From Deltaproteobacteria bacterium (lineage in GTDB: Bacteria; Desulfobacterota; Syntrophia; Syntrophales; UBA2210): a stretch of DNA of 45,502 nucleotides. Location: the NCBI GenBank assembly GCA_019313695.1, contig JAFDAS010000021.1, positions 1 to 45,502 on the forward strand. Direction: 5' to 3'. Positions 25,695 to 36,975 of the stretch are shown here, in pieces; position 1 is the first letter of the stretch; each line of letters opens with the position of its first letter. Both the position numbers and the translations under genes were made by a program. The notes beneath the pieces are model-generated. The model did no database searches, was not told where the DNA came from, and worked only from the letters and a program-made list of their open reading frames with translations.

Positions 25695-25728
25695 GAAGGC
25701 ATATCCGTACCGGGTATGCCTTTTTTTA
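25695..25728 (+). terminator. Riboswitch-controlled intrinsic terminator
   Basis: AAGGCATA (25696-25703) pairs perfectly with TATGCCTT (25715-25722), followed by a T run. Its position right after the TPP aptamer makes it the expression platform. Confidence 0.85.
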
Positions 25729-25987: not shown

Positions 25988-26638
25988 ATGGATAAGATAA
26001 TCTTTGTCATATCGAACGGTGTCATGGATGATCTCCGGTTTCTTGATGAGGAGATCAGGCGCGCCGGCGACCCGGTCCTTATCTGCACAGACGGCGCGGC
26101 CCGGAGGATGAAAGAGCTCGACAGGGTGCCCGACATGATCGTGGGGGACATGGATTCCGTCGACGAGGCCACCCTGAAATATTTTGAACAGAAGGGGAGC
26201 CGGATTATCAGGCATTCCGAAGACAAGGACGAAACCGATACGCAATTAGCGCTTGAGAGCGCCTTTGAAATGAATCCGGACCAGATACGCATATTCGGCG
26301 CTCTCGGAGGGAGGATCGATCACGAACTGGCGAATATCTCCCTCCTCGTGATGTGCGCGAAGAGTGGTATCGACGCGAAAATAGTTGATAAGAATTGCGA
26401 GCTTTTTGTCATTGACCGGTCATGTGTAATCGACGGCAGAGAGGGTGAAACGGTTTCTCTGATCCCCATGTCTTCAGACGTCAGGGGGATAACACTCGAA
26501 GGTTTCAGATATCCTCTTTCCGACGGGGTGATGGAGATTGGAAGACCATACGGTGTGAGCAACAGGCTGGCCGGGACAAGAGGGTCAATTTTGGTGAAGT
26601 CGGGGTATCTGCTGATTATACGACAGCTTAAAGTTTGA
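25988..26638 (+). CDS. thiN: Thiamine pyrophosphokinase (thiamine diphosphokinase)
   Basis: A 216-residue enzyme that transfers pyrophosphate from ATP to free thiamine. Hallmarks are LICTDGAARRM, IVGDMDSVDE, HSEDKDETDTQLAL, the GALGGRIDHELANISLL motif and the C-terminal PYGVSNRLAG that closes the thiamine site. ATG 25988 has GGGGG about nine bases upstream. It is the first gene behind the TPP riboswitch. It uses thiamine, not thiamine monophosphate, which matters because ThiE in the same operon makes the monophosphate and no ThiL kinase is seen. A 397-base repeat-filled gap separates it from thiD. Confidence 0.92.
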   Translation: MDKIIFVISNGVMDDLRFLDEEIRRAGDPVLICTDGAARRMKELDRVPDMIVGDMDSVDEATLKYFEQKGSRIIRHSEDKDETDTQLALESAFEMNPDQIRIFGALGGRIDHELANISLLVMCAKSGIDAKIVDKNCELFVIDRSCVIDGREGETVSLIPMSSDVRGITLEGFRYPLSDGVMEIGRPYGVSNRLAGTRGSILVKSGYLLIIRQLKV

Positions 26639-26656
26639 CGCACCCGTAGAAAGTCT

Positions 26657-26980
26657 GTCATTCCCGCGTAGGCGGGAATCCAGTCAGGGTCTCGAGAATA
26701 ACGGGTATCGCCCTTCTGTCATTCCCGCGTAGGCGGGAATTCATAGAGAGCTAAGCACTTGAAAGAACTGGATTCCTGTTCCCCGATCGGGGTCGAGGAC
26801 AAGCTTCACGGGAATGACAAAATTGTGCATATTTCGACTTTTTACAAAGCCATCAAGTTTGATGGACTCGTGAAAAGTCCCAAAAACGTTATGCCGGACT
26901 TGATAAGCCTGCCCCGTACTTGATACGGGGGCATCCAGAACATATTGAAATTACTGGATTCCGACTTCCGCCGGAATGAC
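26657..26980. repeat. Cluster of GTCATTCCCG..CGGGAATCCAG palindromic repeats
   Basis: Four related palindromes lie here. Two are direct copies at 26657-26683 and 26718-26742 (GTCATTCCCGCGTAGGCGGGAAT). Two are inverted and altered at 26768-26818 and 26954-26980 (CTGGATTCC...GGAATGAC). A hairpin CCCCGTA-CTTGA-TACGGGG is at 26912-26930. A fifth family member stands at 32654-32682. Elements like these are dispersed in many Desulfobacterota genomes. Confidence 0.8.
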
Positions 26981-27021
26981 AAAAAATGGTGTTTTCTGAC
27001 TTTTTACGACTTTGTCAAGTT
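26836..27021. repeat. GACTTTTTAC-family inverted repeats before thiD
   Basis: GACTTTTTACAAAGCCATCAA (26836) and its near mirror image ending at 26879 form a 21-bp imperfect palindrome, 18 of 21 positions matching. A second GACTTTTTACGACTTTGTCAAG stands at about 26998-27019. These ends resemble the arms of the repeats at 16641 and 25728. The sequence CAAGTTT follows both right-hand arms. Confidence 0.65.
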
Positions 27022-27035
27022 TAGAGGAGTAAGAT

Positions 27036-27860
27036 ATGACGATAAAAAAAGTGTTGACGATAGCGGGATCTGACTCCGGAGGAGGAGCCGGCATACAGGC
27101 GGACCTAAAGACGATTACCGCGCTCGGAGGTTTCGGCATGAGCGTGATCACGGCCCTGACCGCTCAGAATACACTTGGTGTGCATGGAATCCACGAAGTG
27201 CCCGCAGATTTCATTGAAAAACAGTTCGACGCGGTGGCTACCGATATCGGTGTCGACGCCGCGAAGACGGGGATGCTCTCCAGCTCTGAGATCATGAGAA
27301 CCGTTGCGGGGAAAATAGAAGAATATGGGATAGAAAAGCTCGTCGTCGACCCCGTGATGGTGGCCAAGGGCGGAGCGATGCTTATAAGGCAGGAGGCAAA
27401 GCAGACACTGATCGACAGGCTTTTGCCACTGGCATTTGTGATAACCCCTAATGTCCCCGAGGCCGAGGAGTTGACAGGGATGAAGATTGCAACTGTTGAA
27501 GACATGAAAGAAGCGGCCAGGGCCATAAACCGGATGGGTGCAAAAAATATCTTTCTGAAGGGAGGGCACATGTCGGGAGATGCCCTGGATATTTTGTATG
27601 ATGGCAGGGATTTTCATGAGTTTACATCAGAGAGGATAGACACGAAGAATACGCACGGCACCGGATGTACCACCTCCGCCGCTATCGCCACGGGGCTCGC
27701 ACAGGGGATGGATGTGTTCGAAGCGGTCAAGAGGGCGAAGGATTATATAACCATGGCTATCAGGCATTCCTTCTGTATAGGCGGAGGTCACGGGCCGACC
27801 AACCACATGGCCTATCTGTTCAGGGACGGTGGTATGCCTGAAGGTGGATTTAAGGAATAG
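27036..27860 (+). CDS. thiD: Hydroxymethylpyrimidine / phosphomethylpyrimidine kinase ThiD
   Basis: A 274-residue ribokinase-fold kinase that phosphorylates HMP twice to HMP pyrophosphate, the pyrimidine half of thiamine. Hallmarks are TIAGSDSGGGAGIQADLKT at the N-terminus, VDPVMVAKGG, ITPNVPEAEELTG and the catalytic HGTGCTTSAAIA near residues 207-218. Length is normal (about 265). ATG 27036 has AGAGGAG upstream. It supplies HMP-PP for ThiE. Two bases separate its stop from the GTG of the ABC ATPase gene. Confidence 0.95.
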   Translation: MTIKKVLTIAGSDSGGGAGIQADLKTITALGGFGMSVITALTAQNTLGVHGIHEVPADFIEKQFDAVATDIGVDAAKTGMLSSSEIMRTVAGKIEEYGIEKLVVDPVMVAKGGAMLIRQEAKQTLIDRLLPLAFVITPNVPEAEELTGMKIATVEDMKEAARAINRMGAKNIFLKGGHMSGDALDILYDGRDFHEFTSERIDTKNTHGTGCTTSAAIATGLAQGMDVFEAVKRAKDYITMAIRHSFCIGGGHGPTNHMAYLFRDGGMPEGGFKE

Positions 27861-27862
27861 AG

Positions 27863-28615
27863 GTGAGCATGCTTTCAGTTTCAGGCCTGACAAAGAAATT
27901 TGAGGATCTCACCGTTATGGACGGGTTCGATCTGACCGTTCGCAGGGGCGGCTTCACCACCCTGATCGGGCCGTCCGGCTGCGGGAAGAGCACACTCTTC
28001 GATGTGCTGACCGGTGTTTTCCCCAGAGATGGCGGCAGGATATCCTGGCTTGGGGAAGATGTCTCCGATCTGATGGGCAGGGCGGCTTACATGCAGCAGA
28101 AAGACCTGCTTCTCCCGTGGTTTTCCCTGATTGACAATGCCATGTTTCCGGTAAAGATTGCCGGAGTCCCGACGAGTCGGGATTCGCGGGAAAAAACTAT
28201 AGCCCTGTTTGAGCGCCTGGGGCTGAATGGGTTCGAGGATTATACACCACAGAAAGTGTCCGGCGGTATGCGTCAGCGCTGCGCACTGGTGAGGACACTG
28301 ATGTTTGAGCATGAACTGGTTCTTCTGGACGAACCCCTCTCTTCCATTGACGCCATAACCCGAAGAAGCCTCCAAGGCTTGCTCCTGTTGCTCCAGAGTG
28401 AGTTTAACAAGACCATCCTGATGATCACGCACGATATAGAGGAGGCCCTTTTGATGTCTGATGAACTGCTTGTCCTGACGCCTATGCCGATGCGGGTAAG
28501 GGAACGGTTTGTCCTGGATATGCCGAAATCCGGAAGGAGCAGTAATCCTGAATTGTTGAAGATAAAAGAGCATGTGCTTGAAGAGCTGGAGGGCGATTTC
28601 GATGGAACGATCTAA
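27863..28615 (+). CDS. ABC transporter ATPase for thiamine precursor uptake (ThiZ-like)
   Basis: A 250-residue ATPase of the SsuB/TauB/ThiZ type. It has Walker A GPSGCGKST, signature VSGGMRQR, Walker B LVLLDEPLSSID and the switch His in ITHD. GTG 27863 is used; ATG 27869 with GAGGTG in front is equally possible. It should energise the importer formed with the next two genes. A palindrome-encoded stretch, VPTSRDS, lies after the Q-loop region and echoes one in MoaA. Confidence 0.88.
   Translation: MSMLSVSGLTKKFEDLTVMDGFDLTVRRGGFTTLIGPSGCGKSTLFDVLTGVFPRDGGRISWLGEDVSDLMGRAAYMQQKDLLLPWFSLIDNAMFPVKIAGVPTSRDSREKTIALFERLGLNGFEDYTPQKVSGGMRQRCALVRTLMFEHELVLLDEPLSSIDAITRRSLQGLLLLLQSEFNKTILMITHDIEEALLMSDELLVLTPMPMRVRERFVLDMPKSGRSSNPELLKIKEHVLEELEGDFDGTI
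28166..28183. repeat. Palindrome inside the ABC ATPase gene
   Basis: GTCCCGAC-GA-GTCGGGAT has the same core as 4339-4356 in moaA, with one end mismatch. It is read in the same phase, giving VPTSRD here and VPTRRD in MoaA. Confidence 0.7.
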
Positions 28616-29339
28616 CTGGATTTCCCTGCTGATTGTCCTGGTTGTCATTGCAGCCTGGGAGTTTGCCTGCGGGTGGTTCTCTGTCCCTGATTTCATCCTT
28701 CCCGCCCCCAGTGAGATATTAAAGACAACAGTATTTAAGGCCTCTCTTCTCCTGCCGCACGCGGGTGTGACCGCGCTGGAGATAATAATGGGAATCTTTC
28801 TGTCCCTGCTGGTCGCGGTGCCTCTTGCGACGGTCATGTTTGCCTGCCCCTCGGTCGAACGTGCCCTGTCGCCCTTTCTTGTGGCATCTCAGGCCGTGCC
28901 CGTATTCGCCCTGGCTCCCCTCCTGGTGATATGGCTTGGATACGGTCTTGCCAGCAAGGTCCTGATGGCGGCGATCATCATCTTTTTTCCCATAACAGTC
29001 AGCCTGCTTGAGGGATATAAGAACTGCGATCGTGAATACGCGATTTTCTTCGATCTGATGGGCGCCGGATTCTGGAAGAAGATGCGACTCCTCTACTGGC
29101 CCTGGGCCCTTCCATATTTCTTCTCCGGGTTGAAGGTGGGAGTGAGCGTCGCCACGATAGGAGCGGTCATCGGAGAGTGGGTGGGAGCGCAAAGTGGTCT
29201 GGGTTATCTGATGATACAGGCCAACGCGAGGCTCCAGGTGTCCCTGGTCTTCGCGGCTATCGTGTGGCTGTCCGTTATGGGGCTCGCCCTGTGGACCTTT
29301 GTCGGCCTTCTGGAGAAGAAGGTCATTTACTGGAAATAA
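28602..29339 (+). CDS. ABC transporter permease (ThiX-like)
   Basis: A 245-residue inner-membrane permease of the BPD_transp_1 type with about six hydrophobic segments. The cytoplasmic coupling loop is visible as DLMGAGFWKKMRLLYWPWAL, followed by PYFFSGLKVGVSVATIGAVI. ATG 28602 is chosen because GGAGGG lies eight bases upstream. The gene overlaps the ATPase by 14 bases. It should carry a pyrimidine thiamine precursor delivered by the binding protein encoded next. Its last codons lie in the left copy of a 12-bp direct repeat that flanks a small palindromic insert. Confidence 0.88.
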   Translation: MERSNWISLLIVLVVIAAWEFACGWFSVPDFILPAPSEILKTTVFKASLLLPHAGVTALEIIMGIFLSLLVAVPLATVMFACPSVERALSPFLVASQAVPVFALAPLLVIWLGYGLASKVLMAAIIIFFPITVSLLEGYKNCDREYAIFFDLMGAGFWKKMRLLYWPWALPYFFSGLKVGVSVATIGAVIGEWVGAQSGLGYLMIQANARLQVSLVFAAIVWLSVMGLALWTFVGLLEKKVIYWK

Positions 29340-29401: not shown

Positions 29402-30352
29402 ATGCTTATGAAAAACAGTTTTAAGGTATTCGTTTCAATCATTCTGGCGTCGTTTCTTCTGCTGACGGCGTCTCCCATCTGCGCCGCGCAGAGGATTACG
29501 GTCATGCTGGACTGGTTTCCCAACATAGACCACCTTCCCATCTATGTGGCGCAGCAGGAAGGATTTTTTGGCGATGAGGGTCTCGATGTTACGATACTTA
29601 CACCTTCCTCGACTACAGATGCCATGAAGCTTGCCGCCTCCGGTAATGTCGACATTGCCGTTTCGTACGAACCACAGGTGATTATCGGCGCCGCGGCCGG
29701 TCTGGAGATCCGGGTTGTTGGAAGACTGGTGGAACACCCCCTCAGTGTCCTCCTCTTTTTGAAGGGAAAGGGGATCAAAAGCCCGGCAGACCTGGAAGGC
29801 AAGACGATCGGTTACACCGTTCCGGGCATGATGGATCTGCTTATGGAGGCATTCGCGAAGATCAACGGGATCAAGAGCTACGAGCCGATCAATGTGGGTT
29901 TCTCGATTGCGCAGTCCCTGGTGGCGGGGAAGGTGGACGCGATTATGGGTCCCTATAAGAACTACGAGACTGTAGCGCTTGAGGAAAAGGGGTACAAACC
30001 CGGATATTTTGAGCTCAGCGAGTGGGGTATACCGGACTACGACGAGCTGGTTTTTATAAGTGGAAAACAGGCGGTGACGGAAAAACCGGAGGCCGTCAGA
30101 GGCTTTGCCCGCGCGATAGATCGCGCCATCTCACGGGCGAGGAAAGACCCCCAGAGGGCGCTTGAAACCTATTTCAGCGCCGTACCCGAAGCACCAAGGG
30201 AGATGGAATCGAAGGCGTTTAAGATTACGTTGCCCCTTTATGCCCACAGTCAGAGTTGTGACATGAAAAAATGGCAGAAGTTCGCCGATTTTGCCTTTCG
30301 TTACGGTCTTATTGAAAAGAAGGTGGATGTGACGACCATACTTGGGAAATAG
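29402..30352 (+). CDS. NMT1/THI5-like substrate-binding protein (ThiY-like)
   Basis: A 316-residue periplasmic binding protein with a signal peptide (FKVFVSIILASFLLLTAS, cleavage probably after ICAAQ). The mature start RITVMLDWFPNIDHLPIYVA is diagnostic of the NMT1/THI5-like family, which binds pyrimidine thiamine precursors such as formylaminopyrimidine. AAGGAAA precedes ATG 29402; ATG 29408 is also possible. Being inside a TPP-riboswitch operon with thiD, it most likely imports HMP or a degraded-thiamine pyrimidine. No ThiC is in the window, which fits salvage. Confidence 0.9.
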   Translation: MLMKNSFKVFVSIILASFLLLTASPICAAQRITVMLDWFPNIDHLPIYVAQQEGFFGDEGLDVTILTPSSTTDAMKLAASGNVDIAVSYEPQVIIGAAAGLEIRVVGRLVEHPLSVLLFLKGKGIKSPADLEGKTIGYTVPGMMDLLMEAFAKINGIKSYEPINVGFSIAQSLVAGKVDAIMGPYKNYETVALEEKGYKPGYFELSEWGIPDYDELVFISGKQAVTEKPEAVRGFARAIDRAISRARKDPQRALETYFSAVPEAPREMESKAFKITLPLYAHSQSCDMKKWQKFADFAFRYGLIEKKVDVTTILGK

Positions 30353-30362
30353 GAGAAGTTCC

Positions 30363-31172
30363 ATGAAGATTACAGCAAAGAATATCTGGCTGGATATCGA
30401 AAAGATCAGAGAGACATCCCCTCTGATCCACAACATAACCAATTACGTGGTGATGAACAGTACTGCCAACGCGCTTCTGGCGATGGGGGCGTCTCCGGTT
30501 ATGGCGCATGCCGTGGAAGAGGTGGAAGAGATGACAGGCATTGCCAGAGCCCTGGTTATCAATATAGGCACCCTGAGCGAATCATGGGTGAAGGCGATGT
30601 TTCGTGCCGTCAGACGGGCCGGTGAGCTGGGGATACCGGTTATCCTGGATCCGGTAGGAGCCGGGGCAACTTCCTATCGAACAAAGACCTGCCATGACCT
30701 TATCGATGCCCTCTCTCCGGCTATTATCCGTGGAAATGCCTCTGAGATCATGGCGCTCGTGATGGGGGAAACAAAGACAAAGGGAGTGGACAGCTCCGAT
30801 CCTTCGAGTGTCGCGCTGGAGGCGGCAAAACGTCTGAACGAAAAGACAGGCAGTACCGTTTGCGTGAGCGGAGAGGTGGATTATATCGTGAGTGGGGAGA
30901 ATGTGATAACAATTGAAAACGGACACCCGATGATGGGGAAAGTTACCGGTATGGGCTGCGCGGCCACCGCCCTGTGCGGCGCCTTTGCCGCCGTCGATTC
31001 CTCTTTTCCGGCCGCGGCCGCGGGGGCCATGGCAGCGATGGGTATTGCCGGAGAGACTGCCGCTGAAAGTTCCGAGGGGCCGGGCAGCCTGCAGGTCGGC
31101 TTTCTGGATGCACTTTTCCGCCTGTCCGAAGATGACCTGATAAATAGTATCAGGATAGGAGAGTTACAGTGA
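30363..31172 (+). CDS. thiM: Hydroxyethylthiazole kinase ThiM
   Basis: A 269-residue ribokinase-like enzyme that phosphorylates salvaged hydroxyethylthiazole. Hallmarks are SPLIHNITNYVVMN with the substrate-site residues, LDPVGAGAT, IIRGNASEI and the catalytic VTGMGCAATAL near residue 200. Length is normal. AGGAG lies seven bases before ATG 30363. Its TGA overlaps the GTG of thiE by three bases (GTGA), so the two are probably translationally coupled. Confidence 0.95.
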   Translation: MKITAKNIWLDIEKIRETSPLIHNITNYVVMNSTANALLAMGASPVMAHAVEEVEEMTGIARALVINIGTLSESWVKAMFRAVRRAGELGIPVILDPVGAGATSYRTKTCHDLIDALSPAIIRGNASEIMALVMGETKTKGVDSSDPSSVALEAAKRLNEKTGSTVCVSGEVDYIVSGENVITIENGHPMMGKVTGMGCAATALCGAFAAVDSSFPAAAAGAMAAMGIAGETAAESSEGPGSLQVGFLDALFRLSEDDLINSIRIGELQ

Positions 31173-31807
31173 AGGGACTGTATCTCGTCACCGACCGCGA
31201 TCTGTGCGGCGACAGATCACTCGAAGATGTGGTGTTGCGATCTGTAAAGGGGGGCGCCCGGTATGTGCAGATACGTGAAAAGGATCAGTCCACACGGGCC
31301 TTCATCGAAGAGGCTTTAAGTATCAAAGAGATCCTTGAACCCTTTAGCATACCCCTGATCATCAATGACCGTGTTGATGTGGCATTAGCGGTGAAGGCGG
31401 ATGGCGTGCATGTGGGACAGGCTGACATGCCGTATAAAATGGCGCGGTCACTCATGGGTCCCGGAGCGATTATCGGTCTGTCTGTGGAGACATGGGAGGA
31501 TGTTGAGGAGGCAGAGGCCCTTGATTGTGATTATATCGGCGTCAGTCCTGTCTTTGAAACGCCCACGAAGACCGACACAAAGGGCGCCTGGGGACTGGAC
31601 GGTCTTGCCAGGATCAGGGCCTTTTCGCGCCACCGGCTTGTCGCCATCGGGGGACTGAACGAATCCAACGCGGCGGATGTGGCAGCCGCGGGGGCCGATT
31701 GTCTTGCCGTGGTCTCCGCCATATGCGCCGCGCCCGATCCCGAAGCGGCGTCAAGGGAACTGGCCGGTATAATAGCAGATGCGCGGGGAAGAACGGATCG
31801 TGTGTGA
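31169..31807 (+). CDS. thiE: Thiamine phosphate synthase ThiE
   Basis: A 212-residue TIM-barrel enzyme joining HMP pyrophosphate and thiazole phosphate to thiamine monophosphate. Motifs seen are LYLVTDR, YVQIREKD, LIINDRVDVALA, DGVHVGQADMP, IGLSVET, YIGVSPVFETPTKTD and VAIGGL. The GTG start overlaps the thiM stop (GTGA). Its product needs either ThiL or dephosphorylation before the pyrophosphokinase can act. The stop overlaps the start of the HAD gene (TGATG). Confidence 0.95.
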   Translation: MKGLYLVTDRDLCGDRSLEDVVLRSVKGGARYVQIREKDQSTRAFIEEALSIKEILEPFSIPLIINDRVDVALAVKADGVHVGQADMPYKMARSLMGPGAIIGLSVETWEDVEEAEALDCDYIGVSPVFETPTKTDTKGAWGLDGLARIRAFSRHRLVAIGGLNESNAADVAAAGADCLAVVSAICAAPDPEAASRELAGIIADARGRTDRV

Positions 31808-32637
31808 TGTTTGAAAAACTCGTCATATTTGATTATTCAGGCACCCTCAGTCCGGATGCCGTCCGGTTTGGAGAAGACGACAACCTGACAGGGGAACTGG
31901 AACGGAGCGGTCTTGCGGCTCTGGGGATAGCGGACCCGGGAACATTCTGGGACGAGATAGCCAATCCCACCTGGGAAGTGGGGAGTTCTACCTCCATCGG
32001 CTACAGGGAGGTCATGTACAGAAGAATTAAAGAGGTGTTCTCTCCGGCGGTCTCGGATGAGAAGATACGCTTGAGCGCCGAGCGCTTTGTTGACAGCTAC
32101 CTTGAACATTCCCCTGTAGATAGTCGATGGCGTCCCATCCTGAAAAAACTGGGCGAAGAGTCCTCCGTTATGACGGTGATTGCCACCGATCATTACGCCG
32201 AGGCTACAGATTATATCGTTGGATTTCTCAAGGAAATGGGTGCAGGGGCGATATCGCTGAAGGATGTGCCCGGCGCGACTGTATCTCAGGGATTTGTCGT
32301 CGCCAATTCCGCTGATATGGGTGCGCACAAGGTCGATCAGGGATTCTGGGAGATGGTCAGAACTATTTTGAAACTGGACGCGATTCAGAGCATCCTGATA
32401 ATCGATGACTTCGGATATAATGAAGAAGCGGGAGACAGCTATGCGGATCGCCAAAAGGTGGAAGAGAGAAAGAACAAGACCATCGACCTGCTGAAAAGGG
32501 TCTTCAATGTCCCGGTTTACGCGATTCTGTTTATGCTTGAACGCGACGATCAGGCCGGCAAAAGCAAAAAAGACGAGAAAACCCGCGGGGATTCCATAAT
32601 CCAGGCATCTCTGGAAATAGAACAGTGGCTAAAGTAG
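31807..32637 (+). CDS. HAD-family protein, candidate thiamine monophosphate phosphatase
   Basis: A 276-residue haloacid-dehalogenase-like protein. Motif I is VIFDYSGTL: the nucleophile Asp (D9) is present, but the usual second Asp is Ser (residue 11). Other HAD marks are VIATDHYAEA (motif II-like), HKVDQGF (possible motif III Lys) and IIDDFGYNEEAGD (motif IV). It overlaps thiE (TGATG) and is the last gene of the thiamine operon. No recognised HAD thiamine gene has exactly this build to my knowledge. A thiamine monophosphate phosphatase role is inferred from the missing ThiL; the Ser at the acid/base position weakens that idea. The Lys-rich C-terminus is not conserved in form. Confidence 0.72.
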   Translation: MFEKLVIFDYSGTLSPDAVRFGEDDNLTGELERSGLAALGIADPGTFWDEIANPTWEVGSSTSIGYREVMYRRIKEVFSPAVSDEKIRLSAERFVDSYLEHSPVDSRWRPILKKLGEESSVMTVIATDHYAEATDYIVGFLKEMGAGAISLKDVPGATVSQGFVVANSADMGAHKVDQGFWEMVRTILKLDAIQSILIIDDFGYNEEAGDSYADRQKVEERKNKTIDLLKRVFNVPVYAILFMLERDDQAGKSKKDEKTRGDSIIQASLEIEQWLK

Positions 32638-33079: not shown

Positions 33080-33793
33080 ATGAATAAACAAATAAATACA
33101 GGTGAGATAGTCATATATCAAACGGAAGACGGTCAGGCGTCTTTAGAAGTTAATCTGGCGGAGGATACTGTATGGCTTGATGCTCATCAAATGGCGGGAC
33201 TTTTTCAGAGGGACAGGACCGTTATTCTCAGGCACGTAAGAAATATCTATAAAACCGGTGAATTGTTGCACGATCCAACCTGTGCAAAAATTGCACAGGT
33301 TGCCCAGGACGGCAAAAAAAGGGTAATGAATTTATATAACCTTGATATGATCATTTCCGTCGGTTATCGTGTCAATTCATTACGAGGCACCCAGTTCCGC
33401 GTCTGGGCCAACAGAATACTGAAAGATTATCTTGTCACGGGCTACGCGCTGAATGAAAAGAGATTACAGACACAGATTGAAAAATATGAGGCGCTCAAAC
33501 AATCGATCAAGCTTATCGATAATATGATTGATCGCAAACTGCTCTCCACGTCTGAATCCGAAGGTCTCCTGAGAGTCATTGGTGATTTCAGCTATGCTCT
33601 GGACACGCTTGATCGATACGACTACGGGAAGCTGGAATTAGGCAGTGTATCGGACCAAACTGTAAAACGAATTTCATATGAAGAAGCTAAAGGCGCGATT
33701 AAGAAAATGCTGGGAAAGTTTGGTGATTCCGCCCTGTTCGGACGTGAAAAGGATAATTCGTTCAACAGCTCCGGAAGCACCCAGCATTTATGA
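33080..33793 (+). CDS. rhuM: RhuM-family protein, C-terminally truncated
   Basis: A 237-residue protein matching the front part of RhuM/virulence-type proteins: an N-terminal DNA-binding-like domain (WLDAHQMAGLFQRDRTVILR, HVRNIYKTGEL), the characteristic LDMIISVGYRVNSLRGTQFR, and VWANRILKDYLVTGYALNEKRL. Full-length relatives are about 330-350 residues and end in a Fic/Doc-like domain. Here the frame stops right after GREKDNSF.SS, the point where that domain would begin, and the Doc-like motif is absent. The protein is therefore probably non-functional or reduced to a DNA-binding fragment. It marks the left edge of the defence island. Confidence 0.75.
   Translation: MNKQINTGEIVIYQTEDGQASLEVNLAEDTVWLDAHQMAGLFQRDRTVILRHVRNIYKTGELLHDPTCAKIAQVAQDGKKRVMNLYNLDMIISVGYRVNSLRGTQFRVWANRILKDYLVTGYALNEKRLQTQIEKYEALKQSIKLIDNMIDRKLLSTSESEGLLRVIGDFSYALDTLDRYDYGKLELGSVSDQTVKRISYEEAKGAIKKMLGKFGDSALFGREKDNSFNSSGSTQHL
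33276..33302. repeat. Perfect 12-bp inverted repeat within the RhuM gene
   Basis: CAACCTGTGCAA and TTGCACAGGTTG are separated by AAA. The hairpin encodes the segment PTCAKIAQVA, a region conserved in relatives, so it may be a by-product of coding or an operator-like site. Confidence 0.7.
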
Positions 33794-33852
33794 ATATAAA
33801 AAAACATTGTACTGAATAGTTACGATTTTTAAGAAAAAAGTGAGAATAAACC

Positions 33853-33908
33853 TTGACAGATTCCCTTTGTGGTATTATTTATACCACATGTGGTATACAA
33901 TAAACCAC
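33853..33908 (+). promoter_or_regulatory. Promoter with GTGGTAT/ATACCAC operator array for the XRE gene
   Basis: TTGACA (33853-33858), a 17-base spacer and TATTTA (33876-33881) form the promoter. Half sites alternate across and after it: GTGGTAT (33869-33875), ATACCAC (33881-33887), GTGGTAT (33890-33896) and ACCAC (33904-33908). The first pair encloses the -10 box and the middle pair is a perfect palindrome ATACCAC-AT-GTGGTAT. Self-repression by the XRE protein encoded next is the natural reading. Confidence 0.75.
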
Positions 33909-33968
33909 AGTGAATAGAGGAAGAGAGAAAGAAATGTATGAAGATGAGCCAGGAAAGGGGGAGGAGCG

Positions 33969-34331
33969 ATGTTTGGTGAATTTATCAAGGAAAGGAGAAT
34001 CGCCAGAGGCATCACTTTAAGAAAATTTTGTCAGAAACTCGATTGGGATGCCAGCAACTGGAGCAAGGTGGAGAGAGGTCTTCTCTCTCCACCCCAGGAC
34101 GAAGTGAAGCTGAGGCGCATCGCAGATCTAATCGGTATTAAGCAGGGATCGGATGAATGGCAAACAACAAAGGATCTGTCCCGCCTTGGAGCGCAGATGT
34201 TACCCGAGGACATAGCGTCGAACAAAAGAATCGTAAATGCATTGCCTTTATTTTTCAGAACGGTGAGGAGTGACAAACCAACAGCGGAGGAATTAGACAG
34301 GCTGATAGATCTGATCAAAAAGGAGGCATAG
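33969..34331 (+). CDS. XRE-family HTH regulator
   Basis: A 120-residue protein with an N-terminal helix-turn-helix (FGEFIKERRIARGITLRKFC, DWDASNWSKVERGLLSPP) and a C-terminal helical part that may bind its partner. GGGGGAGGAG precedes the ATG. It is followed after three bases by an ImmA/IrrE metallopeptidase gene, the usual pairing in which the protease inactivates the repressor on a signal. The promoter in front carries matching inverted half sites. Such pairs regulate mobile elements and defence genes. Confidence 0.88.
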   Translation: MFGEFIKERRIARGITLRKFCQKLDWDASNWSKVERGLLSPPQDEVKLRRIADLIGIKQGSDEWQTTKDLSRLGAQMLPEDIASNKRIVNALPLFFRTVRSDKPTAEELDRLIDLIKKEA

Positions 34332-34334
34332 GGA

Positions 34335-34967
34335 TTGAATCAGGCCGAGTTCAGGTGCAAATGGCTCAGATTGGAAGATATTTGGGATTGCGCGGAAGAT
34401 GTCCGCAACCGTTATTGGTCGGCAGGGAAGCTGCCAGTCGATGTCGAGGCTATTGTAGAATTCAAATTAAAGCTCGATATCGATCCGGAGAATAACCTCA
34501 TGCAGCAGACTGACATGGAAGCCTGTCTCAGATCGGATTTGAGAGGAATCGTTGTCGATCACGATCATTATATGAATGAAAAATTCGCCAACCGAATGAG
34601 ATTCTCATTTGCCCATGAACTCGGCCATTTTTTTCTTCACAAAGATTTTTACGCCATGATCGTATTCGAATCGGCAGAGGAATGGAAAGATATCCTCCTG
34701 AGCCTGCCCGACACAGAATACAGATACTTTGAATACCAGGCCAATGAGTTTGCCGGCCGCCTTCTCGTTCCTCGAGAAGACCTTGTTCGTGAAATTGATA
34801 ATGCCTTGAAATTACTGGAGCTAAATAACATGCTGGAATATCTGAAAGCGGATCCCAATGCCGTGCTTTCGCGTATAAGCACTCAATTATCAAGGCCGTT
34901 TGGTGTTTCAGCAGATGTTATCGAACGGCGAGTGGACAGGGAAAAATTGTGGCCACCGGATGCTTAG
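34335..34967 (+). CDS. ImmA/IrrE family zinc metallopeptidase
   Basis: A 210-residue protein with the zinc motif H94-E95-L-G-H98 in FAHELGHFFLH and a third ligand Glu in YQANEFAGRLLVP (about E138), the standard ImmA/IrrE arrangement. The start is TTG 34335, with AGGAGG eight bases upstream. It probably cleaves the adjacent XRE protein to switch on nearby genes. Its neighbours downstream are a putative OLD-like nuclease and the type III system. Confidence 0.9.
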   Translation: MNQAEFRCKWLRLEDIWDCAEDVRNRYWSAGKLPVDVEAIVEFKLKLDIDPENNLMQQTDMEACLRSDLRGIVVDHDHYMNEKFANRMRFSFAHELGHFFLHKDFYAMIVFESAEEWKDILLSLPDTEYRYFEYQANEFAGRLLVPREDLVREIDNALKLLELNNMLEYLKADPNAVLSRISTQLSRPFGVSADVIERRVDREKLWPPDA

Positions 34968-35085
34968 ATGTACGGGGGAATGGAGTCATTCGAAGGCAAC
35001 ATATTGCAGAGATAAAAGGTTATACCTTGCTTCAAAGTTAATAAGTTAACAGCGTCACCTACTGTTCGGACACAAACATGGGGAT

Positions 35086-36975
35086 ATGATAAACATGATA
35101 AACAAAGCATTGTCATTTGACCTGCCCATACCATGGAAGCAGAAAAAGTTTGAAATTACACAGATAGGGGCTATCAATTTTCTGGTCGGACCAAACGGAA
35201 GCGGCAAATCAAAATTCGCAGAAGCATTGCGTTCAGTTTTAGAAAATGTACGCATGTTAGGAACGGATCGACTTAGTGGTATGGAGCAAGCCAATCCGCT
35301 GAAGAATATTTTTGGAGATCATTTTGCAAATGGACTTGCCAAAAACCAGTTTCCTAATTTCAAAAGCGCTGGCCAGCAAGGATCGGGAATCGATACGATC
35401 GTGCTTTTAGAAGAAAGGATGGATCTACGCATACAGGTTGAGGCGACTTTAAGCCATCTGTTCAATCGAAAAATCATACTCGAATGGGACTCCGGAAATC
35501 TTGTAGCACGGGCGGTTCTTGGCGAAACAGGCGATTCTTACAGACTTGATCGAGATGAATGTCATGGAATTAAGGAACTGCTTGTCCTCCTTACGCATTT
35601 ATACAATGATGATCATTCATACCTTATTATTGATGAACCGGAACTCAATCTGCATCCCCAATTTCAGGCATTCTTTATGCAAGAGGTTCGCAAAATAGCA
35701 GGCGACCCAAGCGCAGACAATAAAAAGAAGGTCGTCTTTTTGGTCACACATTCTCCTTTTATCCTTGATTTTAGATCTATCGAAGATGTGAAATCCGTTA
35801 TTTCCTTCGATCTAAAGCATTCGATTCCAAAACACATTTTTGATCTTGATTCAGCGGCGACAGCAAGGTTGTCAACATTGGTGCCACGATTGAATGTACA
35901 CCACAAGCAACTCTTCTTTTCTGACAACCCGATATTTGTAGAAGGTGTTCTCGACGCTCAAATCGTCGGGACGATGCAGGAAGCACGTGGTGTATCCGTC
36001 GCTGGGGCAGGAAGTTGCATCATCGATGCTGGTGGCTGCGAGGAAGTGAATCGCTATCTGGAGCTATGCCGGGCCTTTGGCAAGAATGCACATTTCTTGT
36101 ATGATCTCGACAGTTTGTTTGGGGGAAATCTTCGAGCATGTGTTAGAGAGGACGGTTCAGTCCAAAGTTTTTTGGTAACGGCGGGCGTTGGAAGCGATTT
36201 TTCTAAGTACTGCGGAGAACTGGATAGGAAGCTAACAAACGTAATCGATCGACTTCTTGAAATCAATAATCCACTGCCCCCAATGAAGCGATTGGTAGAT
36301 TTTCTAACTAACCTGGGACCGAGATCACAGTGGAACGGGAAAAATTGGGCGAAGGCACGTATGGCTGTGATGACCGCGATTAGTCAAAATCGGCAGGCAA
36401 TAATTGAAGCTTTATCTCAGTCAGATATCGATGAGATCGAAGGACGGCTAAAGCAAATTATCATCGCGCTAAAGCAAATAAACGTAATCCTGCTGCCCGG
36501 TGGTACGTTGGAAAGATACTTACCCAAGTACATGGGGGACCATTACGAACTTACAGACGACGCCAAGCGAAAAGCAGTCGGAGAAGAGATCGAGGAAATG
36601 GCAAAGGCCATGACAACAACGGAGTTGTCGGATAGATACGGTGAGTTATATGAGGCAGTTTGTGCCTTGCCATCAAAGTCAAGTGTTGACGTAGAACGGG
36701 TTCTTCGCGATTACTTAAGCAATTACATCCATGATCTGCAAGCTGCGCTCGTGAGTAATCCGACTTGGGGGCTCGATCAGGTTCAAGCACACTTAAAAAC
36801 GATTCATCATGCCACAATCAAGGTCTTTTCTGTTCAAAAGTTGAATCGAGAATCACATAAAAAGTTCAGCGTCATTGTTGAAATCGCCGAAATGCTTGGC
36901 CAGAAAAAAAGGTTCGTGCGAGTCACTCATCAAACCAATGCGGGTATGGGTGATTTTAATATCGAATTTGCTTAG
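35086..36975 (+). CDS. AAA ATPase with TOPRIM domain, OLD-family nuclease-like
   Basis: A 629-residue protein. The ABC-type ATPase has Walker A GPNGSGKS (35-42), Walker B YLIIDEPELNLHP (179-191) and a switch His in VTHSPF (H222). After it lies a TOPRIM-like domain: E286 in FVEGVLDAQ and D340/D342 in LYDLDS. This ATPase-TOPRIM order is that of OLD-family nucleases used in phage defence (for example GajA-like and P2 Old). The C-terminal 250 residues are alpha-helical and unfamiliar. ATG 35086 is used; ATG 35095 has better Shine-Dalgarno spacing (GGGGA at 35080). No UvrD-like helicase follows, so it is not a typical Gabija pair. The coding is more AT-rich than upstream genes. Confidence 0.72.
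   Translation: MINMINKALSFDLPIPWKQKKFEITQIGAINFLVGPNGSGKSKFAEALRSVLENVRMLGTDRLSGMEQANPLKNIFGDHFANGLAKNQFPNFKSAGQQGSGIDTIVLLEERMDLRIQVEATLSHLFNRKIILEWDSGNLVARAVLGETGDSYRLDRDECHGIKELLVLLTHLYNDDHSYLIIDEPELNLHPQFQAFFMQEVRKIAGDPSADNKKKVVFLVTHSPFILDFRSIEDVKSVISFDLKHSIPKHIFDLDSAATARLSTLVPRLNVHHKQLFFSDNPIFVEGVLDAQIVGTMQEARGVSVAGAGSCIIDAGGCEEVNRYLELCRAFGKNAHFLYDLDSLFGGNLRACVREDGSVQSFLVTAGVGSDFSKYCGELDRKLTNVIDRLLEINNPLPPMKRLVDFLTNLGPRSQWNGKNWAKARMAVMTAISQNRQAIIEALSQSDIDEIEGRLKQIIIALKQINVILLPGGTLERYLPKYMGDHYELTDDAKRKAVGEEIEEMAKAMTTTELSDRYGELYEAVCALPSKSSVDVERVLRDYLSNYIHDLQAALVSNPTWGLDQVQAHLKTIHHATIKVFSVQKLNRESHKKFSVIVEIAEMLGQKKRFVRVTHQTNAGMGDFNIEFA

Follow-up and report, generated by a model that had tools for sequence, protein, structure and literature searches.

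A HAD-fold protein lacking the second motif I aspartate is a candidate thiamine monophosphate phosphatase in a thiamine operon without ThiL

The HAD-fold protein encoded by the final gene of a thiamine (thi) operon in a deltaproteobacterial draft genome is probably a thiamine monophosphate (TMP) phosphatase. The gene occupies positions 31807-32637 of the plus strand of the window, i.e., the whole stretch of 45,502 nucleotides analysed here, which is contig C110 of a 2.82 Mb assembly (95.5% complete), and its product comprises 276 amino acids. The reaction, the residue roles and the substitute acid/base proposed below were inferred from the observed gene order, the absence of ThiL, gene co-occurrence, the fold and residue conservation. 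In the proposed scheme, ThiM and ThiD would phosphorylate the salvaged thiazole and pyrimidine, ThiE would join the two phosphorylated moieties to TMP, and the HAD enzyme would hydrolyse TMP to free thiamine. Thiamine pyrophosphokinase (TPK) would then convert thiamine to thiamine pyrophosphate (TPP), which would feed back via the riboswitch. The earlier note had put the gene forward as a candidate for this step, and the proposal gained support from the finding of TPK without ThiL, the coupling to TMP synthase, the exclusion of ThiL among relatives and the riboswitch association in another phylum.

ThiE yields TMP, TPK uses free thiamine as its substrate, and ThiL converts TMP directly to TPP. 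The whole-genome check for thiL suggested in the earlier note was carried out on the 95.5%-complete assembly, with the TIGR01379 cut-off of 184 bits as the criterion for ThiL. None of the proteins scored above the cut-off, and the two matches obtained (76 and 37.5 bits) were rejected as ThiL, being SelD (361 bits against its own model) and PurM (455 bits against its own model). ThiL is therefore absent from the assembled part of the genome, to which approximately 5% may be lacking; TMP synthase and TPK are both present. The HAD protein itself gave no match to TIGR01379 in the NCBIfam search. Elsewhere in the source genome (G000:C230:4343-4486), an open frame of 58 amino acids matched the end of ThiN, which suggests that a further TMP synthase, based on ThiN, either lies on a broken contig or survives as a remnant.

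The operon is headed by a TPP riboswitch aptamer (RF00059, 25588-25691, plus strand; 61.3 bits, above the gathering score). Directly 3' of the aptamer lies a terminator-like hairpin (25695-25723, plus strand) of 13 pairs followed by a T-run, which, judged by its position, is probably the expression platform of the riboswitch; the frequency of such hairpins in the region was not above that in shuffled sequence. The genes that follow, all on the plus strand, encode TPK (25988-26638; TIGR01378, 178 bits against a cut-off of 76; PF04263/PF04265), the HMP/HMP-P kinase ThiD (27036-27860; TIGR00097, 368 bits), an ABC transporter ATPase (27863-28615; PF00005) and permease (28602-29339; PF00528, start codon picked by eye), an NMT1/THI5-like substrate-binding protein (29402-30352; PF09084, 204 bits), the substrate of which is probably a pyrimidine precursor, the hydroxyethylthiazole kinase ThiM (30363-31172; TIGR00694, 294 bits), thiamine phosphate synthase ThiE (31169-31807; TIGR00693, 208 bits against a cut-off of 145) and, finally, the HAD protein. 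Two observations of the earlier note were confirmed: the thiE stop codon (TGA, 31805-31807) and the HAD start codon (ATG, 31807-31809) have one base in common, and no ThiL was found among the genes from the riboswitch to HAD. Its claim that the HAD gene is under the TPP riboswitch held with a qualification. The aptamer does head the operon, but we infer co-transcription from it, because a repeat-bearing gap of 398 bp splits TPK from thiD. In this spacer (26639-27035), a dispersed repeat (TGTCATTCCCGCGTAGGCGGGAATCCAG type) is present in several copies, some direct and some inverted. It looks like a later insertion, since TPK and thiD lie close in relatives (mostly close or overlapping in those of the same genus), and continuity of the transcript across the gap was assumed on the same ground. 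At the 3' side of HAD, the window carries a defence-like gene group (33080-36975). Its members are a RhuM-family gene, an HTH gene together with its partner of the ImmA/IrrE type (Peptidase_M78), and an OLD-like AAA ATPase that contains a TOPRIM domain.

A survey of 100 related genomes identified the HAD family in 61, ThiL in 12 (including one split gene below the cut-off), TPK in 75 and ThiE or ThiN in 90. HAD and ThiL were never found together, as 61 genomes contained HAD alone, 12 contained ThiL alone and 27 neither (Fisher p = 4e-6, uncorrected for kinship). The exclusion represents few independent events, because ThiL is confined to three families of the order. All 12 ThiL genomes were devoid of both the HAD family and TPK, and ThiL and TPK never co-occurred. 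TMP synthase, on the other side, was present in 60 and TPK in 54 of the 61 HAD genomes; when only those at least 90% complete were counted, the values were 50/50 for TMP synthase, 47/50 for TPK and 0/50 for ThiL. Because all seven non-fragmentary HAD genomes without ThiE have ThiN, the constant partner of HAD is TMP synthesis and not ThiE as such. In a further 17 relatives, TPK and a TMP synthase are present while ThiL and the HAD family are both missing (G031, G047, G067, G075, G081, G087, G092 and G096 of family f14, as well as G027, G043, G028, G044, G011, G038, G048, G074 and G086). TMP dephosphorylation is thus achievable by other means, and inspection of those thi loci of these genomes that were read revealed no obvious alternative phosphatase beside thiE or TPK.

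Within the order, the HAD gene was located beside thiE or in a thi operon in 52 of the 61 carriers. In 47 of these 61, thiE lies directly upstream on the same strand, and thiC takes this position in five further carriers, four of which display the visible order TPK, thiD-thiN fusion, Thi4, (tenA), thiC, HAD. HAD is retained when ThiN replaces ThiE, which suggests that the intermediate common to both arrangements is TMP. In the remaining nine carriers, no thi gene adjoins HAD, which counts against the assignment. A chance neighbourhood was rejected on account of the 52 linked carriers and the spread over three phyla. Some additional features of these loci were recorded. In family f9, HAD is followed by a gene for an MBL-fold protein of the ribonuclease Z subfamily (PRK02126), which in several cases overlaps HAD and which is also found where the neighbour is not thiE (loci L083-L085, L088, L089, L091, L094, L096, L099, L100 and L102). 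The relative G012 has a truncated HAD copy (L050:10898-11344) that runs into nucleotidyltransferase-like sequence some 6 kb after thiE, followed by an HTH gene similar to the one downstream in the window; a full HAD copy lies elsewhere on the contig (L051:3616-4434). At L055:2879-4318, a Thi4-type thiazole synthase is continuous with a methyltransferase-like domain in a single ORF.

The neighbourhoods also bear on the identity of the substrate. The protein might instead be a salvage or clean-up phosphatase for HMP-P, HMP-PP, thiazole phosphate or a damaged TMP analogue, with promiscuous enzymes dephosphorylating TMP, and we regard this as the foremost alternative, though an unlikely one. It would accommodate the occurrence of HAD alongside Thi4, thiC and the salvage enzyme TenA, as well as the 17 relatives that manage without HAD, but it does not predict the strict absence of HAD from all 12 ThiL genomes. 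Moreover, ThiM versus Thi4 and ThiE versus ThiN vary by operon type; since the thiazole and pyrimidine routes differ in this way, TMP is the intermediate common to all. TMP hydrolysis is the reading that we retain.

The HAD family was found in three phyla, namely Desulfobacterota, Chloroflexota and Bacillota. In a sample of 394 Desulfobacterota genomes, strong matches were confined to the same order, and seven weak partial matches (E about 1e-4, over 38-58 profile positions) were detected in another family. Bacillota related to Syntrophomonadaceae have the orders thiM-thiE-HAD, thiM-thiE-thiD-HAD and thiE-thiD-HAD. The Roseiflexus HAD gene comes after TenA, which in turn is preceded by a TPP riboswitch, an arrangement that constitutes independent evidence of thiamine control; the gene pair resembles plant TH2, which is a TenA-HAD fusion. 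The HAD copies of Chloroflexus are unlinked to thi genes, which likewise counts against the assignment. TPK was present in each of the 12 Chloroflexota carriers and ThiL in none. No TPP riboswitch reached the gathering score beside the thiM-thiE-HAD loci that were read outside the host family.

The HAD protein showed no significant match to Pfam, NCBIfam or PDB sequences, and it remained below the curated cut-offs of the HAD-IA family models of Pfam and NCBIfam. Among 14 family members, sub-significant matches were obtained to TIGR01509 (two members) and TIGR02247 (three members), with a best E of 0.013. An AlphaFold model built with 14 homologues (pLDDT 89.3, pTM 0.89) predicted a Rossmannoid HAD core with a helical C1-type cap inserted between motifs I and II. 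Conservation was counted in an alignment of 84 sequences from three phyla, with motif I scored in 82. Motif I (31831-31839) reads D9-Y10-S11-G12-T13, i.e., DYSGT where phosphatases have DxDGT, with Asp9 conserved in 81/82 and Ser11 in 82/82 sequences. Motif II (32185-32193) contains Thr127 (82/84, Ser in the other two), Asp128 and His129 (both 84/84). Lys175 of motif III (32329-32331) and Asp200-Asp201 of motif IV (32404-32409) were likewise found in 84/84. Next to motif II, no variation was seen at Asp128, His129, Tyr130, Glu132 and Thr134. The predicted fold, the presumed nucleophilic Asp and motifs II-IV argue for membership of the HAD superfamily. The nucleophile is probably Asp9. Mg2+ would probably be bound by Asp200 and Asp201, and the phosphate held by Thr127 and Lys175. 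An aromatic cation, of which thiamine is an example, would be well accommodated by the invariant or near-invariant aromatic residues Trp48, Trp56, Tyr98, Trp108 and Trp181.

The second Asp of the DxD motif is the general acid/base in HAD phosphatases (PMC8069645), and Ser11 would be unable to serve in this capacity. The earlier note had observed this Ser and treated it as a caution, which is a real one, yet the substitution is a trait of the family: as Ser11 is invariant in 82/82 relatives, a sequencing error, a local mutation and a pseudogene were rejected. Since the DxD feature was looked for and found to be replaced, we do not call the protein a canonical HAD phosphatase, though it can plausibly work like one. 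The substitute acid/base may be an invariant residue next to motif II, probably His129, Asp128 or Glu132. That a distinct HAD family spanning three phyla and lying outside Pfam and NCBIfam hydrolyses TMP with Ser in place of the acid/base Asp, the proton being transferred by His129/Asp128 or by the substrate, is a more specific proposal, to which we give about even chances; it would add a catalytic variant to the HAD phosphatases and supply a vitamin B1 step that has been missing.

The replacement of the acid/base Asp of ordinary HAD phosphatases by Ser also raised the possibility of a different chemistry, in which the HAD-fold enzyme would either transfer phosphate, as a phosphotransferase, or act at carbon as a hydrolase. 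HAD enzymes without the second Asp, such as dehalogenases, phosphonatase and P-type ATPases, are not known to be simple phosphatases; Ser11 is invariant, and cis-epoxysuccinate hydrolases were at the top of the Foldseek list. Against this, the second structural aligner, VIA, placed phosphatase-type HADs first (BT2542, YihX-like proteins and the N-domain of soluble epoxide hydrolase, Z about 13-14), the phosphate- and Mg-binding motifs are all retained, and the pathway context demands a dephosphorylation, so that we consider a different chemistry less likely still than a different substrate. The loss of one canonical catalytic residue might suggest that the HAD-like protein has a non-catalytic or regulatory part in the thiamine operon. 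This is very improbable, as Asp9, Lys175, Asp200, Asp201 and the region of motif II show little or no variation across three phyla, which is unexpected for a dead enzyme. The preferred assignment thus remains a TMP phosphatase.

The proposed enzyme was compared with known systems. The best structural matches were to BT2542 (VIA Z 14.1, rmsd of 3.1-3.4 over about 195 residues) and YihX-like phosphatases (Z 12.9), at 12-14% identity. These differ in being smaller than the HAD protein, and they have a canonical DxD and act on sugar phosphates. The N-terminal phosphatase domain of soluble epoxide hydrolase (HAD-1A3 type, TIGR02247) gave a VIA Z of about 13.5, and its G-x-x-K, in the region of the motif III Lys, and DDFGxN of motif IV could be aligned with the HAD protein at a sub-significant E of 0.18; it differs in having DxD in motif I and in its substrates. 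ThiL uses the intermediate proposed as the substrate of HAD and thereby fills the same gap in the pathway, but the two proteins are unrelated and did not co-occur in any of the 100 relatives. The closest functional parallel is provided by TMP phosphatases of HAD subfamily IA, including plant TH2, as reported by Hasnain et al. 2016 (Biochem J 473:157) and Mimura et al. 2016, to the extent that these are cited in PMC5627462 and PMC8331165. According to the account in PMC5627462, dephosphorylation of TMP in plants and certain bacteria is carried out by HAD-IA enzymes, whose genes either form fusions with thiD/thiE or share an operon with them (Hasnain 2016). Compared by description, the HAD protein resembles these enzymes in its fold, in its operon with thiE/thiD and in the presence of TPK without ThiL. 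The operon linkage to thi genes that marks the bacterial HAD TMP phosphatases was found in 52/61 carriers, in Bacillota and in Roseiflexus, and the combination of TMP synthase and TPK without ThiL was found as well. The HAD protein differs from them in having Ser for the second Asp and in matching no HAD-IA model above the threshold. The role of TMP phosphatase for a HAD enzyme in a thi operon is already known, since HAD-IA enzymes of this kind were reported (Hasnain et al. 2016, as cited in PMC5627462). What is new is a family outside the existing models, its spread and its invariant Ser.

As this family matches no current model of Pfam or NCBIfam, automatic annotation would overlook it. For the conversion of TMP to thiamine, which frequently has no assigned gene, the finding offers a specific candidate in those syntrophic and phototrophic bacteria in which TPK is used and ThiL is lacking. 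Whether a HAD phosphatase can work without the second Asp of DxD is a question for which the family also provides a natural test.
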